Source: Methylobacillus gramineus
GTDB lineage: Bacteria; Pseudomonadota; Gammaproteobacteria; Burkholderiales; Methylophilaceae
Reading direction: 5' to 3'
Assembly (NCBI RefSeq): GCF_020532675.1
Contig: NZ_JAJAVE010000001.1
Coordinates: 1,922,001 to 1,986,000, forward strand
DNA length: 64,000 nucleotides
Below the pieces are notes generated by a model. The model was given only the letters and a program-made list of their open reading frames with translations, ran no database searches and was not told the origin of the DNA. Below, piece after piece: positions 11,958 to 34,360 of this stretch (position 1 is its first letter; each line of letters opens with the position of its first letter). Made by a program: the position numbers and the translations under genes.

Positions 11958-12842
11958 TTAATGACGAAGTGCCTGTACCAGAAAGTCTACAAAGGAAGTC
12001 AGTTTGGGCGTTAATTGTCGCTCTCTTGGATAGACAGCATGAATCGGCCGCGCAGGAGGCAGATGATCATGCATCAACTCCACCAGCCGCCCAGCCTCAA
12101 TATCCTGCCGGAGCAATTCTTTGGGCATCATGATGAGCCCAATACCTTTGATGGCAGCAACTCGCAGTGCCTGTCCGTTATCTGATTCAAACCTTGGCAT
12201 CTGTCCTGTTTTAGATCCGGACTGTTGCTGCATCAGCCGCCAGCCACCCTGACTATGCCAGTTGGTAAATCCCAGGCATTCATGATGGGCAAGGTCTTCC
12301 GGCGTTTCTGGCTTTCCTGCCAGCGCAATATAGTCAGGAGAAGCGCAAACAGCTACTTCAAACATTGATATCTTTCTCGCCAGCAGTGAAGAGTCTTTGA
12401 GCTCACCCACCCGAATCGCCACATCAATGCCTTCATCTACGATATCGACATATCGATCCGTCAAGGACAGTTCAATATTCACCTCGGGGTATTGCTGCAG
12501 GTAGTCACAGATAACCGGTGCCAGGGTTAATGCGCCAAACCACATCGACGCACTGACCCTGAGCTGGCCTCTGGGCGCGCTCCCCATGGCTTCAGCGCCC
12601 GCCTCTGCATTGGCAATGTGCCCGATGATCAGCTTGCAATTCTCGTAATACTTTTGACCAATCTCGGTAAGTTTTTGTCTTCGCGTGGTCCTGGCCAGCA
12701 AGGCGGCTCCTAAACGCCTCTCCAACGCGGCAATATGTTTACTCACCATGGCAGGAGATATCCTGAATGCGTTCGCTGCAGCCGTAAAACTGCCCATATC
12801 CACGGCGGCAACAAACACCTCCATACTCAGCAACCTGTCCAT
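11958..12842 (-). CDS. LysR-family transcriptional regulator
   Basis: 294 residues. An N-terminal winged helix-turn-helix (MEVFVAAVDMGSFTAAANAFRISPAMVSKHIAALERRLG) is followed by a periplasmic-binding-protein-like effector domain (about 90-290) of the CrgA/DmlR-like subgroup. It is divergent from a short-chain dehydrogenase gene with 105 bases between starts, the usual arrangement in which a LysR protein controls itself and its neighbour. An AATAT-N7-ATATT dyad at 12861-12877 is the best candidate operator. The effector is unknown. Confidence 0.92.
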   Translation of the reverse strand: MDRLLSMEVFVAAVDMGSFTAAANAFRISPAMVSKHIAALERRLGAALLARTTRRQKLTEIGQKYYENCKLIIGHIANAEAGAEAMGSAPRGQLRVSASMWFGALTLAPVICDYLQQYPEVNIELSLTDRYVDIVDEGIDVAIRVGELKDSSLLARKISMFEVAVCASPDYIALAGKPETPEDLAHHECLGFTNWHSQGGWRLMQQQSGSKTGQMPRFESDNGQALRVAAIKGIGLIMMPKELLRQDIEAGRLVELMHDHLPPARPIHAVYPRERQLTPKLTSFVDFLVQALRH

Positions 12843-12947: not shown

Positions 12948-13547
12948 ATGAAGGTCTTGATCGTCGGTGCATCAGGCACCATAGGAAAATTGATCGTGAA
13001 AGAACTTTCCCCTCGCCATGCGATTATTGAAGCAGGCAAGCACAAGGGACAGTATCAGGTCGATATTACGAACGAAGACAGTGTTCGCCAGCTCTTTACG
13101 CAGGTGGGTAAAGTCGATGCCATTATTGCCGTGGCAGGCAATGTACACTGGGGCTCGTTACAGGAGATGAGCGCTGATCAATTCAAGATAGGCTTGAATG
13201 AGAAACTGATGGGGCAAGTCAACCTGACCCTGATTGGTCAACACTTCCTCAATGATGGTGGATCTATCACCCTCACTAGCGGCAGCTTGAGTGATGATCC
13301 ACACGTCGGGGGCGCCAGCTTTACCACCGTCAATGCCTCCATTGATGGATTCATTAGGGGAGCCGCCGTTGAACTGGATCATGACCGCCGTATCAATTCC
13401 GTCAGTCCCAATGTGCTGCAAGAATCGTGGGATGTCTATGGTGGCGGGGTTCCTGGCACAGAACCTGTACCGGGTGAAAAAGTAGCCCTTGCCTATAGAA
13501 AAAGCGTGGAAGGCCACCAAACCGGTCAAACCTATCGTGTTTGGTAG
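12948..13547 (+). CDS. Short-chain dehydrogenase/reductase-like protein with atypical active site
   Basis: 199 residues with a clear Rossmann start (MKVLIVGASGTIGKLIVKEL) and the AVAGN motif. It is shorter than classical SDRs (about 250). The Ser of the catalytic site may be in ITLTSGSL, but the expected Tyr-x3-Lys is replaced by a stretch reading ASFTTVNASIDG, so the standard acid-base pair is missing. Relatives of this short type exist and are annotated as SDR family oxidoreductases without known substrates. GGAG precedes the ATG. It is divergent from the LysR gene and presumably regulated by it. Confidence 0.85.
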   Translation: MKVLIVGASGTIGKLIVKELSPRHAIIEAGKHKGQYQVDITNEDSVRQLFTQVGKVDAIIAVAGNVHWGSLQEMSADQFKIGLNEKLMGQVNLTLIGQHFLNDGGSITLTSGSLSDDPHVGGASFTTVNASIDGFIRGAAVELDHDRRINSVSPNVLQESWDVYGGGVPGTEPVPGEKVALAYRKSVEGHQTGQTYRVW

Positions 13548-13778: not shown

Positions 13779-15665
13779 TTAGAGGCTAAAGACGTTCAGT
13801 GCACCACCACCAGGTGCTGCATTCCAGTCCTTCAGTTCCTTGTATCCACCCGCTGCGCCCAGACCGTCATTTTCGTTGGTCAGACCCAGATTCATGGCAA
13901 CACCAGCCCAGCCACCGATGCCGGACAGAATGCCTATGTACTGCTTGCCTTTGTGGCCATAGGTAATCGGATTACCCACCACACCAGAACCGACACGGAA
14001 CTTCCAGAGTTCTTTGCCCGTTTTGCCATCCACGGCCTTGAGCCAACGATCGAGGGTACCGTAGAACACTACGTCAGACCCCGTTGCCAGGGCACCGCTC
14101 CAGACAGAGAACTTCTCTTTGTTGTACCAGACCTGCTTGCCCTTGAGACCATCCCAAGCCATGAAACCACCCATGATGCCATCAGGGCCTGGGAACATGC
14201 TCAATGTGGCACCCACCCATGGCTGACCAGCGACATACTTCACTTCTACCGGCTCGTAATCCATGCAGACGTGGTTAAGCGGTACGTAGAACAGCTTGCT
14301 CTTGGGTGAATAGGCCGCAGGTTGCTGATCCTTCACGCCCAGGGATGCAGGGCAAACACCTTTGGAATTCACATCCTGGTGCGTAGAGAACTTAGGATCC
14401 TTGATCGGCACACCGGTCTTGAGATCAATCCCAGTAGCCCAGTTGACGAATGGGTGAATTTTCTCAGCAGCCACCAGCTTGCCGGTTTCACGGTTCAGCG
14501 TATAGCCAAAGCCGTTACGGTCAAAATGCGTCGCCAGTTTCTTGCCTTCAGCATCCCACAGGATGGTTTCGTTCACTGCATCGTAATCCCACTCATCATG
14601 TGGTGTCAGTTGATAACCCCACTTCGCTAGGCCTGTATCCAGATCACGGGCGAAAATGGTCATGGACCATTTGTTATCTCCAGGACGTACGTCTGGATTC
14701 CAGACGGAAGGATTACCAGTGGAGTAATACAGCAGATTCAACTTGGAATCATAAGAATACCAACCCCAGGTTGCACCACCTCCACGCTCCCAGCCATTCT
14801 TGGTCGCTTGTGGCTTGTGCCAGGTTTTCACGCCCAGATCAGTTTCTGGAAACTTCAGCTTATCCGCAGCCAGTGGCTTGAAAGAACCGTCTTCCTTGTT
14901 ACCACCGTTCACGTCTTCATACACTGACAAAGCGCTGTACTGTGGGGTGTCCTTGTTAAAGTCCTTGCCGATCAAGACTTCGCTATCCGGGCCAGTGCTA
15001 TAGGCACGCCAAGCTTGCGAACCATCCTTGATATTGTAGGCAGTCAGATAGCAACGTACGCCATACTCACCACCTGAACAGCCGGTAATGACCTTATCCT
15101 TGAAGATGTGAGGTGCATTGGTTGTCGTTGCCCCTTCCTTGGGATCAACCACTTTGACATCCCACACCTTGGCACCGGTCTTGGCATCCAAGGCTACCAG
15201 CACACCGTCGTTCTGTTGCAGGAAAATCTTGCCGTCACCGTAGCCCAGGCCACGCGTCACGTTATCGCAGCACAGCAGCGACTGAATGGAGGGATCCTGC
15301 TTGGGGAAATAAGACCATTTGATCTTTTCACCATTATTGAGATCAAGGGCATACACATTGTTCGGGAATGCAGTGGCTACATACATGATATCGCCAACCA
15401 CCAGCGGCGCGCCTTCATGACCACGATTCACGCCAGTAGCAAAGGTCCAGGCCATTTTCAGGTTCTTGATATTGGCCTTGTTGATCTGGGACAAGCTGCT
15501 ATATCCGGTATTTGCATAATCTTTACGCTGTGCAACCCATTGGTTGTCATCCTGCATCAGCTTTTCAAGATCATTTGCCGCAAAAGCAGGAACCGATAGC
15601 AGGCCAATCAGGCCCGCTCCGACTGCGAGTTTGAGTTGTTGATATTTCAAGAAAGTATTCTCCAT
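13779..15665 (-). CDS. xoxF: Lanthanide-dependent PQQ methanol dehydrogenase XoxF
   Basis: 628-residue periplasmic quinoprotein with a signal peptide (MENTFLKYQQLKLAVGAGLIGLLSVPAFA) and eight-bladed propeller repeats. I start at the ATG at 15665 because it gives a clean signal peptide; an open frame continues to 15728. The vicinal cysteines of methanol dehydrogenases are present (SLLCCDN). The metal site reads HDEWDYD: the second Asp (codons at 14580-14588) marks lanthanide-using XoxF enzymes, where calcium MxaF has Ala. Methanol is oxidised to formaldehyde or formate, with electrons passed to a cytochrome c. No xoxG or xoxJ follows. A sigma-54 promoter and a divergent sigma-54 activator lie upstream. 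Confidence 0.96.
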   Translation of the reverse strand: MENTFLKYQQLKLAVGAGLIGLLSVPAFAANDLEKLMQDDNQWVAQRKDYANTGYSSLSQINKANIKNLKMAWTFATGVNRGHEGAPLVVGDIMYVATAFPNNVYALDLNNGEKIKWSYFPKQDPSIQSLLCCDNVTRGLGYGDGKIFLQQNDGVLVALDAKTGAKVWDVKVVDPKEGATTTNAPHIFKDKVITGCSGGEYGVRCYLTAYNIKDGSQAWRAYSTGPDSEVLIGKDFNKDTPQYSALSVYEDVNGGNKEDGSFKPLAADKLKFPETDLGVKTWHKPQATKNGWERGGGATWGWYSYDSKLNLLYYSTGNPSVWNPDVRPGDNKWSMTIFARDLDTGLAKWGYQLTPHDEWDYDAVNETILWDAEGKKLATHFDRNGFGYTLNRETGKLVAAEKIHPFVNWATGIDLKTGVPIKDPKFSTHQDVNSKGVCPASLGVKDQQPAAYSPKSKLFYVPLNHVCMDYEPVEVKYVAGQPWVGATLSMFPGPDGIMGGFMAWDGLKGKQVWYNKEKFSVWSGALATGSDVVFYGTLDRWLKAVDGKTGKELWKFRVGSGVVGNPITYGHKGKQYIGILSGIGGWAGVAMNLGLTNENDGLGAAGGYKELKDWNAAPGGGALNVFSL

Positions 15666-15757
15666 AGTATGAAAATGATTGCCGCCGCTATCGTTCTCCA
15701 CCGCAACGGCGATGCTGATAACTTGCACAACTCAGCCATAGGCTTGCAGGCCATTTC

Positions 15758-15774
15758 AGCAATCCTTATGCCAA
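15758..15774 (-). promoter_or_regulatory. Sigma-54 promoter (-24/-12) of xoxF
   Basis: On the minus strand the site reads TTGGCATAAGGATTGCT, against the consensus YTGGCACGRNNNTTGCW; the GG and GC dinucleotides have the exact 12-base spacing. Transcription would start near 15747, giving a leader of about 80 bases before the xoxF ATG. The adjacent divergent gene encodes a sigma-54 activator, which supports the assignment. Confidence 0.7.
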
Positions 15775-15789
15775 TCCCCATCAAACTCA

Positions 15790-15917
15790 GGAATATTTCC
15801 CAAAAACAACAATGAAATAATGCCTTACACTACACATCCTCTGACAATCCAAGCCCCACCTGCCCGATGCAAGGTTGTACCGAAACCGCACAAGTGCTAC
15901 ATTTGGGAACAATTCCC
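15790..15917. promoter_or_regulatory. Pair of GGAA-N3-TTCC dyads, candidate activator sites
   Basis: GGAA-TAT-TTCC (15790-15800) and GGGAA-CAA-TTCCC (15905-15917) share the same half-sites and 3-base spacer. Their centres are 116 bases apart, close to 11 helical turns. Relative to the predicted xoxF start they sit near -48 and -164. They are the best candidates for the binding sites of the divergent sigma-54 activator; this is inference from symmetry and position. Confidence 0.45.
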
Positions 15918-15938
15918 GGATACCGCAGTCAATTGCTC

Positions 15939-17861
15939 ATGAATCACCCCGCTACCAAGTCCTTGCATCCCACCGAACATGCAAGGCTGCAGTTTCTTGC
16001 TGACGGCAATATGCAGGAAGGCGTGGTGAGCAAGACCATTGCCCAATCCTGGCAGCGCAGCCTGGCTCAAGGCATCAATGCAGCGTTGCCCCTGACGACG
16101 GAAACCTTGAGCAAGGTGGAGCTGGAGAAAAAATATAGCCAGAACCACCTGCTACTGACACAAGCCAGGCCCGAAATTGCCACGCTTTACGAACAGATTG
16201 CCCACTCTTACAGCGCTATTGCGCTGACCGATGCCAAAGGCGTCATCCTGCATAGCGAGGGGCACGACCACCTGGTCGGTATGGCACCAGCGGTTATGCT
16301 CAGCCCAGGCTACTCATGGAGCGAAGAGGAAAGAGGCACTAATGCGATTGGTACGGCGATCATTGAGGAACAGCCAGTAGCCGTCCAGGGCGCAGAACAT
16401 TTTGTAGCGCAACTGCATCTCTTCAGCTGTTACGCCGTTCCCATTTTTGGCGCCAATCATCAGCTGATTGGCACGCTCAATGTTTCCAATGCTTTTTCCG
16501 CCCATCAGCAACACACGCTGGCGCTGGTCAAAATGGCAGCACAAATGATCGAGAACCGGATATTCCGCGCCAGCCATCAAGGCCCTGTGGTTCTGCGTTT
16601 TCACAACCGCCCTGAATTCATCGGCACCCTCTGGGAAGGCACGGCGGTCTTTTCCCACACGGGCGCACTGCAGGCGATCAATCGCAATGGCATGACCCAG
16701 CTTGCGTGCCAGGCCCACAACCTTCCCGGCACATTTGAAGGCATCTTCCATCAGCCATTCAACATGGCACTTGGACAGGCCACATTACAATCGCCCATGC
16801 AGCTAGCTGGGATCAACGGCAGCATCATTCATGCGCAGCTAGATGCTGCGACTCCGGAAGAACACCCAGCCTCCCCGATTAGCCGCATCAAGCAGCCGCA
16901 TGGCAGGCAGACCCTGGATCACCTCAACAGCAGCGACACGCATATCCAGCAAGTCGTTGCACAAGCCAGGCTAGTGATGAATCAGGATATTCCCATCCTG
17001 ATCGAAGGAGAAACCGGGGTAGGTAAAGAGCTATTTGCCAGTGCCATTCACTACAGCAGCAATCGCAGCCATGGCCCCCTTATCGCGGTCAACTGCGCCG
17101 CCCTGCCTGAAGGCCTGATTGAGGCCGAACTATTTGGTTATGAAGAAGGCGCATTCACCGGAGCCAGACAAAAAGGCAGCCAGGGCAAAATTGAACAGGC
17201 CAACGGTGGCACCCTGTTCCTGGATGAAATCGGCGATATGCCGCTATTGCTTCAGGCAAGGCTTTTACGCGTATTACAGGAACGTAGCGTGACCCCGCTA
17301 GGCGGCAGCAAATCACGGCGCCTGGATTTTGCCGTGATCAGCGCCACCAATCAGACCCTGCAAGCCAAAGTCGCCAGCGGAGAATTTCGCAAGGATCTCT
17401 ATTACCGCCTGAACGGCCTCAGCCTTACCCTGCCGCCCTTACGGGAGCGTAGCGACCTCAACGCCCTGCTGGCAACCATCGTGCAGAGCGAGCAATATCA
17501 ACGTGAGATCAGCGCAGACATCATGCAGATATTCAGACAGCACGCCTGGCCTGGCAATATCCGCCAACTGCGTAATGTGGTGAAAACAGCGATCGCCCTC
17601 GCCGATGGCAAACCCATACAACGCAGCCATCTACCAAACAGCTTCATGCAGGAACTAGCTTCATCCGGGCAACAAATTAAAAACGCAGACAGCCCAATGC
17701 AATCTGAATTTCAGGCAAATGGGTCTCTTGATGAAATGACCCAAGAAGCAGTCAAGCGGGCGTTAGAGAATCACGAGGGCAACATTTCTGCCGCAGCACG
17801 CTCACTGGGGATGAGTCGCAACCGCTTGTACCGTAAGCTCAAAGCACTAGGGATGAGCTAA
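15939..17861 (+). CDS. Sigma-54-dependent transcriptional activator (AcoR-like)
   Basis: 640 residues. An N-terminal GAF-like sensor region (about 50-210, with WSEEERGTNAIGTAI as in AcoR) is followed by an AAA+ domain: Walker A GETGVGKE near 356, the sigma-54 contact loop GAFTGA near 404, Walker B GGTLFLDEIGD, and an arginine-rich PLRER segment. The C-terminal Fis-type helix-turn-helix ends the protein (GNISAAARSLGMSRNRLYRKL). I use the ATG at 15939, since the ATG at 15867 would place a palindromic site inside the gene. It is divergent from xoxF, whose promoter is of the sigma-54 type, so xoxF is its likely target. The ligand is unknown. Confidence 0.92.
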   Translation: MNHPATKSLHPTEHARLQFLADGNMQEGVVSKTIAQSWQRSLAQGINAALPLTTETLSKVELEKKYSQNHLLLTQARPEIATLYEQIAHSYSAIALTDAKGVILHSEGHDHLVGMAPAVMLSPGYSWSEEERGTNAIGTAIIEEQPVAVQGAEHFVAQLHLFSCYAVPIFGANHQLIGTLNVSNAFSAHQQHTLALVKMAAQMIENRIFRASHQGPVVLRFHNRPEFIGTLWEGTAVFSHTGALQAINRNGMTQLACQAHNLPGTFEGIFHQPFNMALGQATLQSPMQLAGINGSIIHAQLDAATPEEHPASPISRIKQPHGRQTLDHLNSSDTHIQQVVAQARLVMNQDIPILIEGETGVGKELFASAIHYSSNRSHGPLIAVNCAALPEGLIEAELFGYEEGAFTGARQKGSQGKIEQANGGTLFLDEIGDMPLLLQARLLRVLQERSVTPLGGSKSRRLDFAVISATNQTLQAKVASGEFRKDLYYRLNGLSLTLPPLRERSDLNALLATIVQSEQYQREISADIMQIFRQHAWPGNIRQLRNVVKTAIALADGKPIQRSHLPNSFMQELASSGQQIKNADSPMQSEFQANGSLDEMTQEAVKRALENHEGNISAAARSLGMSRNRLYRKLKALGMS

Positions 17862-18043: not shown

Positions 18044-18370
18044 TTACAGGGTCAGTATCCACTGCACGATGGTTTTAATATCATCATCCGCGATCTGAGG
18101 GCTGTTAGGCGGCATAGGAATCGGGCCCCATACGCCCTTGCCTCCAGACTTGACCTTGGCAATCAACTTGGCCTCTGCCGTTTTCTCGCCCCGATACTTG
18201 GCAGCCACATCACGATAAGCCGGGCCTATCACTTTATTCGCCACGGTATGGCAAGCGAGGCATCCGCTTTTCTGTGCCAGCGCCTCAGCTGCCTTGGCAT
18301 CCACCGCTGCGGCCTGGCCAGCAAGCGCCAATCCACATACCGCGATCAGGATGCGCATGATCGATTTCAT
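18044..18370 (-). CDS. Small class I cytochrome c (c-551/c8-like)
   Basis: 108 residues with a signal peptide (MKSIMRILIAVCGLALAGQAAAVDA), one CLACH haem motif and a PIPMPPN motif supplying the distal Met ligand. This is the c-551/c8 pattern of soluble periplasmic electron carriers. I start at the ATG at 18370 because AGGAGG lies just upstream; the longer frame (to 18391) would put the ribosome binding site inside the gene. It is near, but not co-transcribed with, xoxF. It could accept electrons from a periplasmic dehydrogenase or an oxidase chain, but it is smaller than typical XoxG/MxaG proteins. Confidence 0.9.
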   Translation of the reverse strand: MKSIMRILIAVCGLALAGQAAAVDAKAAEALAQKSGCLACHTVANKVIGPAYRDVAAKYRGEKTAEAKLIAKVKSGGKGVWGPIPMPPNSPQIADDDIKTIVQWILTL

Positions 18371-18476
18371 ATATCCTCCTTGGCTTATCACTGCCGTTGA
18401 TATTGCCTAACGCTTCAGGTAAATCAACGTTGACCTGTACTCATCAAACAAATGCACGATTGCGCATGAATCAGGA

Positions 18477-32825: not shown

Positions 32826-32842
32826 CTGGCACAGCATTTGCT
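32826..32842 (+). promoter_or_regulatory. Sigma-54 promoter of the nasFED operon
   Basis: CTGGCACAGCATTTGCT matches YTGGCACGRNNNTTGCW at all fixed positions but one (A for the G after TGGCAC), with exact GG-GC spacing. Transcription would start near 32853, just before the first ANTAR hairpin. Confidence 0.82.
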
Positions 32843-33058: not shown

Positions 33059-34360
33059 ATGAGTAATTCCAAAAAAACACCATCATTGCCAGAGTCCACA
33101 GTAGCTCACGACAGCATGGACCAGAGCAGGCGTCATTTCTTCCACCAAGCTGTGGCAGGCACACTGGGAGCTGCAGCGATGATGAATATGGTTCCTTCCG
33201 CCATCCACAATCAGGCATGGGCAGCTGGTTCGGATACCCCAGAACTTACCGAAGTCAAGATTGGCTTCATTCCACTGACGGACTGTGCGCCAGTGGTGGT
33301 AGCCGCCCAGATGGGCTTCGACAAGAAATACGGTATCAAGATTACACCATCCAAAGAGGCTTCCTGGGCTGCGATTAGAGACAAGGTGGTCAATGGTGAA
33401 TTACATGCAGCCCATATGCTGTATGGCATGGTGTATGGCGTGCAGATGGGCATTGGTGGGCAACAAAAAGACATGTCCGTCTTGTTAACCCTGAACCACA
33501 ATGGACAGGGCATCACGCTAGCCAACCAGCTCAAGGATAAGGGCGCGACCAGTGGCCCTACCCTGAAACGCTTGCTGGACAATGAAAACCGCGACTTCAC
33601 CTTTGCGCAGACCTTCCCTACCGGCACCCATGCCATGTGGCTCAACTACTGGTTGGCAACGTATGGCATCAACCCACTCAAGGACGTGAAAACCATCGTC
33701 GTGCCACCACCACAAATGGTCGCCAATATGCGTATCGGCAATATGGATGGCTATTGTGTAGGTGAACCATGGAATGCGCGTGCCATTTACGACAAGATCG
33801 GCTTTACCGCAGCCACTACGCAAGATATCTGGACCGATCATCCCGAAAAAGTATTGGGCACGACTGCAGACTTTATCGCCAAGAACCCCAATACCGCCCT
33901 CGCCCTGACCAAGGCGATCCTGGAAGCCTGTCGCTATATCGATGCCACCGCCAACCGTCCGGCTGTCGCCAAGCTGATTGCTGGCAAGGCCTATGTCAAT
34001 GCGCCGGAAGAAGTCATTGAAGGCCGCTTCCTCGGCCATTACGACAACGGTATCGGCAAGAAGTGGGAAGACCCGAACTACATGAAGTTCTTCAATGATG
34101 GCAAGGTGACCTTCCCTTACCTGTCAGATGGCATGTGGTTCCTGACCCAGCACAAACGTTGGGGCCTGTTGAAAACCGATCCTGACTACCTGGCCATTGC
34201 CAAGAAGGTCAACCGTATCGACATTTACACCGAAGCAGCCAAGGCGCTGGGGGTTTCCGTCCCGACAGATCCCATGCGCTCGAGCAAGCTGATTGACGGC
34301 GTGGTGTGGGATGGCAAGGATCCGAAAGCCTATGCCAACGGCTTCAAGATCAAGGCCTAA
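33059..34360 (+). CDS. nasF: Nitrate ABC transporter substrate-binding protein (NrtA/NasF type)
   Basis: 433 residues. A twin-arginine signal (SRRHFFHQ at about 23-30, then a hydrophobic stretch to NQAWAAG) indicates Tat export as a folded protein. The mature part (VKIGFIPLTDCAPVVVAAQMGFDKKYGIKI) is the NrtA/CmpA/SsuA-like nitrate-binding fold, with YCVGEPWNARA in the second lobe. It captures nitrate or nitrite in the periplasm for the NasE-NasD importer. A strong ribosome binding site (AAGGGAG) precedes the ATG. Expression should need both the sigma-54 promoter and antitermination in the leader. Confidence 0.96.
   Translation: MSNSKKTPSLPESTVAHDSMDQSRRHFFHQAVAGTLGAAAMMNMVPSAIHNQAWAAGSDTPELTEVKIGFIPLTDCAPVVVAAQMGFDKKYGIKITPSKEASWAAIRDKVVNGELHAAHMLYGMVYGVQMGIGGQQKDMSVLLTLNHNGQGITLANQLKDKGATSGPTLKRLLDNENRDFTFAQTFPTGTHAMWLNYWLATYGINPLKDVKTIVVPPPQMVANMRIGNMDGYCVGEPWNARAIYDKIGFTAATTQDIWTDHPEKVLGTTADFIAKNPNTALALTKAILEACRYIDATANRPAVAKLIAGKAYVNAPEEVIEGRFLGHYDNGIGKKWEDPNYMKFFNDGKVTFPYLSDGMWFLTQHKRWGLLKTDPDYLAIAKKVNRIDIYTEAAKALGVSVPTDPMRSSKLIDGVVWDGKDPKAYANGFKIKA

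Follow-up and report, generated by a model that had tools for sequence, protein, structure and literature searches.

We analysed a 64,000-nucleotide stretch of the Methylobacillus gramineus genome (contig NZ_JAJAVE010000001.1, positions 1,922,001 to 1,986,000; the whole stretch is called the window below). It carries xoxF, the gene of a lanthanide-type methanol dehydrogenase (13779 to 15665, minus strand, ATG at 15665), and the gene of a divergent one-component sigma-54 activator (15939 to 17861, plus strand). We estimate at about 90% the probability that this xoxF, probably of the XoxF4-2 subtype, is switched from a sigma-54 promoter by the divergent activator, which would act at a TGT-N11-ACA dyad and through the sensing of a small molecule. 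The estimate draws on a candidate -24/-12 element, the dyad, the domains of the activator, an rpoN gene, conservation among relatives and apparent co-inheritance, all read from sequence; the binding of the activator, the activation and the position of the transcription start are predicted.

In the proposed circuit, the sigma-54 RNA polymerase would transcribe xoxF from the -24/-12 promoter, and the gene would stay nearly silent until a signal arrives. The activator would bind the dyad as an enhancer, approximately 100 to 140 base pairs upstream. It would sense the small molecule via its N-terminal GAF-containing region, hydrolyse ATP and open the sigma-54 RNA polymerase complex.

Pairing of xoxF with the activator

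Both proteins were searched for in 187 genomes of the family Methylophilaceae. The activator was found at E<=1e-120 in 53 of them, at 59 places, and XoxF at E<=1e-100 in 160. Among the XoxF matches listed, every one that scored 1159 bits or higher (47) was included, together with 55 that scored lower. In 43 of the 47, belonging to seven genera, xoxF is divergent to an orthologous activator, with gaps of 274 to 387 nucleotides (nt). None of the 55 lower-scoring matches is paired in this way, every pair lying at 1159 bits or more.

The four unpaired genes among the 47 comprise one beside a broken activator (L124), two with part of an activator at a contig edge (L188, L189) and one with none adjacent (L187). 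All four keep the -24/-12 element and the dyad. At L124 the activator lies in pieces, in different frames, next to a promoter and a xoxF that are apparently intact. The displaced xoxF at L187, in genome G022, is found behind molybdate-transport-like genes and has the element and two dyads. The activator of the same genome (L021/L250) is on another contig, where it adjoins an aldehyde dehydrogenase and where element and dyads are also present. To judge from this layout, it looks like one activator serves both the aldehyde dehydrogenase and the displaced xoxF.

As for the activators, 16 of the 59 have no listed xoxF as neighbour. In three cases out of the 16 (L190, L191 and L192) the element is close by, with pieces of xoxF at L190 and L192. 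Most of those examined among the remaining xoxF-free activators adjoin aldehyde dehydrogenases, by our reading of the open reading frames (ORFs). Genome G005 has two copies of the activator (L119 and L120) with equal score, 143 kb apart and with a divergent phosphoesterase-like ORF; no xoxF was found in the 12-kb stretches around them.

The -24/-12 element of xoxF

The candidate element, TTGGCATAAGGATTGCT, runs from 15774 to 15758 on the minus strand. The initial annotation had placed an element with exact spacing here, and a direct reading confirms it, with a gap of exactly 10 bases from GG to GC. By the usual sigma-54 spacing convention, transcription of xoxF would start near 15747, the position also expected in the initial annotation.

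Such a match could be due to chance or be a relic, in which case xoxF would depend on sigma-70 and on a two-component lanthanide switch of the kind found in other methylotrophs. A lone match is indeed weak, because the window holds 79 matches to TGGC-N7-TTGCW with at most one mismatch (5 of them exact) against 63 expected. Known control is also of the two-component kind: passages of PMC11845868 describe MxbDM, MxcQE and MxaY/MxaB for Mxa and Xox, and PedS2/R2 for Ped, which agrees with what had initially been said of xox and mxa control.

What makes the element convincing is its conservation in all 43 paired orthologous promoters. All 43 paired intergenic regions were compared with the sequence upstream of 51 of the 55 unpaired genes. 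TGGCAY-N5-TTGC is present in each of the paired regions, in one copy and in the direction of xoxF, with none on the opposite strand, at 92 to 152 nt from the start of the XoxF match. The 5 spacer bases differ among these promoters and both boxes are invariant. Dinucleotide shuffles of the same regions contain the pattern in a mean of 0.23 of 43, with a maximum of 2 over 200 shuffles. Upstream of the 51 unpaired XoxF4 genes it was found in none, the single strict match in these regions being within coding sequence. A more relaxed pattern matches 8 of the 51, and in 7 of these the match is within coding sequence. A lack of conservation in close relatives had been named beforehand as grounds to refute sigma-54 control, and all 43 pairs proved to have the element. 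The difference between paired and unpaired regions contradicts a chance or relic origin, and so do the conserved dyad, whose distance is typical of enhancers, and the displaced xoxF at L187, which keeps element and dyads away from the activator. We consider that origin extremely improbable.

The TGT-N11-ACA dyad

The dyad, a plausible enhancer (upstream activating sequence) of the activator, is located at 15876 to 15892, 102 nt upstream of the -24/-12 element. The shared block came out of a search for motifs in the sequence preceding the element and is evident too in an alignment of the 5 promoters of the window type. The motif search misfitted at least one row (L158), and a dyad test with fixed spacing was used in its place. 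By this test TGT-N11-ACA is present in 43/43 paired promoters, ending 101 to 143 nt upstream of the TGG, with a mean of 0.77 of 43 and a maximum of 5 in 300 shuffles of the windows searched. Alternative spacings score lower, with 28 promoters for spacing 9, 14 for spacing 6 and 11 for spacing 13. The high value at 9 arises because the consensus TGACACA holds two ACA.

A separate check was made with 16 promoters beside related activators linked to aldehyde dehydrogenases, neighbours that were likewise assigned by reading ORFs. The dyad is present in 10 of the 16 (9 of the first 13), with a shuffle mean of 1.4, and the other spacings from 6 to 16 reach at most 4. Several of these dyads are nearly perfect palindromes.

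The divergent activator

In terms of PFAM domains, the activator contains a GAF sensor domain (PF01590, E=3e-14; 16170 to 16562), a Sigma54_activat AAA+ domain (PF00158, E=6e-67; 16932 to 17426), an AAA lid and a Fis-type helix-turn-helix, HTH_8 (PF02954, E=1e-10; 17742 to 17846), all on the plus strand and above the Pfam cut-offs. No receiver family is among its Pfam matches. The GAFTGA motif is present in 24 of 26 aligned activators, including that of the window, while the other two have GAYTGA and GAFTGS. The Walker motifs are also visible in the alignment.

The initial annotation had described a complete GAF-AAA+-Fis sigma-54 activator. Its domains hold, with GAFTGA in place, and its start does not. 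The frame is open back to 15867, but the orthologues align only from approximately 15939, where there is an ATG, and 15876 to 15892 is taken up by the conserved dyad, so that 15939 is the likelier start and 15867 an unlikely one.

Structure comparisons agree with this assignment. Positions 21 to 275 of the family alignment profile match the DhaR structure 4lrx (E=2e-19). The AlphaFold model is confident over most of the chain, with a mean predicted local distance difference test score of 83.8 and a predicted template modelling score of 0.51; residues 1-8, 307-322, 406-411 and 581-595 are of low confidence. The top 50 Foldseek matches are structures of sigma-54 activators, aligned mainly over the AAA+ domain and so uninformative on the ligand. 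The 25 listed of 27 matches to NCBIfam equivalogs (PrdR, DhaR and others) are all below the cut-offs, and we therefore call the protein AcoR/DhaR-like without assigning it to any named equivalog. AcoR serves as a family name and was also used in the initial annotation.

With other activators of the AcoR/DhaR type, the protein shares the order of domains, GAFTGA and the lack of a receiver match, and its related members adjoin aldehyde dehydrogenases. It differs in its target, a lanthanide methanol dehydrogenase in place of aldehyde dehydrogenase or acetoin genes. We guess that an alcohol or aldehyde acts as inducer, with methanol and formaldehyde as candidates, because the nearest related activators adjoin aldehyde dehydrogenase genes. 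Between xoxF and the activator and directly beside them, the places covered by this search, no sensor kinase or response regulator was read.

Phylogeny and spread beyond the family

Quick trees were made for activators and enzymes. Among 59 activators, the 17 linked to xoxF group with only two others (L021 and L119), with support 99. Among 51 enzymes, the 24 sigma-54-linked XoxF need a single change of label, and a clade apart from them (support 95) is made up of 20 other XoxF4. The enzymes and the activators of the window type each form a 5-member clade with support 100. Given these matching clades, enzyme and activator seem to have been passed on together as a module, which in this genus was apparently also duplicated as a whole.

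Outside the family, XoxF relatives gave 32 matches in 28 of 369 genomes (own genome included), of which 30 were scanned as loci. The strict element is present in 2 of the 29 loci that are not of the own genome, L252 (104 nt upstream) and L256 (225 nt), and no related activator was found in their fetched flanks. With 2/29 outside the family and 0/51 upstream of unpaired XoxF4, we rejected the idea that all XoxF genes are under sigma-54 control. Furthermore, on a Nevskia contig (L085) a XoxF has the element and is followed downstream by a related activator and by genes resembling those of glutathione-linked formaldehyde oxidation; no dyad of N11 spacing was found there. This arrangement suggests that the sigma-54/XoxF layout may have arisen more than once.

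Sigma-54 and methanol dehydrogenases in the own genome

The genome has one rpoN (PF04552, 227 bits). The window promoter thereby combines a match to the consensus, conservation beyond chance and an RpoN encoded in the same genome. There are four methanol-dehydrogenase-like genes: the xoxF of the window, two further XoxF that are 80% (L118) and 72% (L126) identical to it, and an MxaF-like copy with 48% identity (L125). The L118 paralogue has its own -24/-12 element and dyad and likewise a divergent activator, with 54% identity to that of the window. For L126 and L125, no strict element was found in the scanned upstream stretch and no related activator within 12 to 13 kb. By our own reading of ORFs, xoxF is accompanied at L126 by genes that resemble xoxJ and cytochrome genes, and the gene order at L125 is mxaFJG-like. 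The conserved element and dyad, the single rpoN, the second pair at L118 and the displaced gene at L187 all support the initial proposal of sigma-54 control by an AcoR-like neighbour.

The strict sigma-54 pattern occurs at 16 sites genome-wide. Scanned over 260 nt upstream, these sites show the dyad in one case, that of xoxF. The element of the L118 pair ends in C and falls outside these 16. Some of the other sites lie within long open frames, others before nitrogen-, sulfur-, pilus- or surface-like genes, and the notion of xoxF as sole sigma-54 target was dropped. One site in the window, CTGGCACAGCATTTGCT (32826-32842), precedes an ORF at 33060 that resembles the binding protein of a nitrate-type ATP-binding cassette transporter, and its sequence context is that of an ordinary nitrogen-related sigma-54 promoter.

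It is conceivable that the promoter is real but responds chiefly to a different activator, such as a nitrogen regulator of the NtrC type, with the neighbour acting elsewhere. There are 12 matches to the activator in the genome, some strict sites precede nitrogen- and sulfur-like genes as said, and relatives express methanol dehydrogenases differently on nitrate and on ammonium (passages of PMC5723320). This alternative is very improbable in our judgement, given a pairing of xoxF and activator that is nearly exclusive and a dyad, common to all 43 paired promoters, that recurs beside related activators with a different neighbour.

The XoxF enzyme and its subtype

The enzyme of the window matches TIGR03075 with 649 bits, and its best two matches in the PDB are the XoxF chains 6oc5 and 6dam. 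It has PHDEWDYD where the MxaF-like copy of the same genome has PHDEWDFA. The enzyme has the DxD motif, with a further Asp at the metal site in place of the Ala of MxaF, and this marks it as XoxF. Metal-site residues are given in parts of PMC11845868.

In terms of subtypes, excerpts of PMC6028718 and PMC6794327 distinguish XoxF4-1 (Mmol_2048) from XoxF4-2 (Mmol_1770) and name XoxF4-1 as the sole kind in pelagic strains. The unpaired XoxF4 clade includes two genomes of 1.3 Mb (L297 and L298), and the paired clade should therefore be XoxF4-2. The sigma-54-linked clade, with the xoxF of the window, is thus probably XoxF4-2.

A small c-type cytochrome (Pfam Cytochrom_C; 18044 to 18391, minus strand) is a candidate electron acceptor of the window XoxF. 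In a pattern scan of the window, no strict sigma-54 site was found for the cytochrome gene itself. The cytochrome is 71% identical over 78 amino acids to the one that follows the paired xoxF in genome G142 (L248). We take G142 to be Methylotenera mobilis JLW8, and the link to Mmol_1770 leans on this presumed identity, on gene-number arithmetic and on the downstream cytochrome. In passages of PMC3728764, Mmol_1770 is followed by a small cytochrome, Mmol_1769.

Expression and the nature of the signal

Sections of PMC3728764 report, for an in situ sediment incubation, a 4-6-fold rise of Mmol_1770 and a 100-fold rise of its Methylovorus homologue. In communities, XoxF4-2 is lowered and XoxF4-1 raised (passages of PMC6028718). 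The two reports are opposite for XoxF4-2, so the true signal is not obvious. This published condition dependence of Mmol_1770-type genes fits a switched gene. The sigma-54 promoter could also help explain the methanol dehydrogenase differences between nitrate and ammonium mentioned above.

The activator might instead sense lanthanide or pyrroloquinoline quinone (PQQ) status directly and be the lanthanide switch of the family. In all 43 pairs this lanthanide enzyme has the activator as its linked regulator, and parts of PMC11845868 describe two two-component systems of M. flagellatus whose protein levels stayed unchanged with lanthanum. Such sensing seems improbable to us, since the unpaired XoxF4, which are also lanthanide enzymes by type (passages of the same paper), lack the element, and the related activators adjoin aldehyde dehydrogenases. 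It is also established that the enzyme is periplasmic, while the sensor is cytoplasmic. A broader version, rather unlikely, would make the activator the main lanthanide- or methanol-responsive XoxF switch of the family, in place of two-component control; RpoN would then link nitrogen status to which methanol dehydrogenase is made and so explain effects of nitrogen source and community conditions.

Several observations weigh against sigma-54 control of xoxF by its divergent neighbour. The 43/43 counts come from paired regions that share ancestry and are not independent (37 are left after a similarity filter), and the spacing of the dyad was picked from the same 43 sequences on which it is scored. 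TGT-N11-ACA occurs anywhere in 9 of the 51 unpaired regions, where about 6 would be expected by chance for their length (our own estimate). In the 16 promoters on the aldehyde dehydrogenase side, shuffles reached up to 7 dyads over 500 runs, and a strict -24/-12 element is present in just 4 of the 16, with looser variants in others. At L192, a xoxF locus beside an activator, the element is present and the dyad missing. In the enzyme tree, the branch uniting all sigma-54-linked XoxF has a weak support of 44, and the unpaired L285, L293 and L300 branch next to them. Lastly, the M. versatilis homologue of Mmol_1770 is very low in each condition (passages of PMC3728764).

Comparison with known systems

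Control of a PQQ alcohol dehydrogenase by sigma-54 is already known from exaA of Azospirillum brasilense (passages of PMC6115532), which limits the novelty to its use on XoxF. That enzyme belongs to another clade, and its regulator is a LuxR-type response regulator, not a one-component AAA+ activator. MxbDM/MxcQE, MxaY/MxaB and PedS2/PedR2 select between alternative PQQ dehydrogenases, but they are two-component or response-regulator systems, and the relevant passages of PMC11845868 do not mention a sigma-54 enhancer. With MmoR and the soluble methane monooxygenase, the circuit proposed for xoxF shares one-carbon oxidation genes under sigma-54 and a dedicated activator; the difference is in the enzyme and in the step, which precedes methanol (excerpts of PMC5874634).

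We found no link between sigma-54 and XoxF in one open-access library, a scope that mostly leaves out subscription papers, so that absence is unproven; in the passages considered of PMC5623727, PMC11237559, PMC5874634, PMC12997753 and PMC3404531, the terms xoxF and sigma-54 are used separately. The circuit thus looks like one of known parts that is new for XoxF.

Nine tabulated strains of the family have two to four xoxF copies each (parts of PMC4109929). Differing expression of xoxF copies has been reported, with no mechanism given in the parts covered of PMC6028718 and PMC3728764. A sigma-54 switch could explain why sister copies differ so much. The comparison gives a rule at the level of sequence, in which one XoxF4 clade has the sigma-54 promoter, the enhancer and a dedicated activator and 51 other regions are without the promoter, and this makes the puzzle testable. 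It also offers a candidate route from nitrogen source to methanol oxidation, relevant to methane-fed communities (PMC5723320, in part).

Other features near the promoter

A palindrome, GGGAACAATTCCC, is located beside the dyad at 15905 to 15917, and a second copy with one mismatch lies just upstream of the -24 box (15789 to 15801). It is restricted to the genus Methylobacillus and is a candidate operator of a second regulator. The copy beside the dyad is in the same place in 4 of the 5 pairs of the window type, and the copy at -28 in 5 of 5. Considering the 8 paired promoters of the genus, RGGAA-N3-TTCCY occurs at fixed places from the TGG, at -28 and -144 or at +30, and in some copies both arms are altered together. 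The perfect palindrome is found at two places in the own genome, GGGAACAATTCCC being one, and is no commoner than a reversed control. The loose form is present in 5 of the 51 unpaired regions (one perfect), which counts against a role as operator. Limited to 8 paired promoters of one genus and loosely present in unpaired regions, RGGAA-N3-TTCCY was rejected as the site of the activator.

Finally, downstream of xoxF, a LysR-type regulator (11958-12842, minus strand) is divergent to a short-chain dehydrogenase (12948-13547, plus strand); the two are probably a regulatory pair separate from xoxF.

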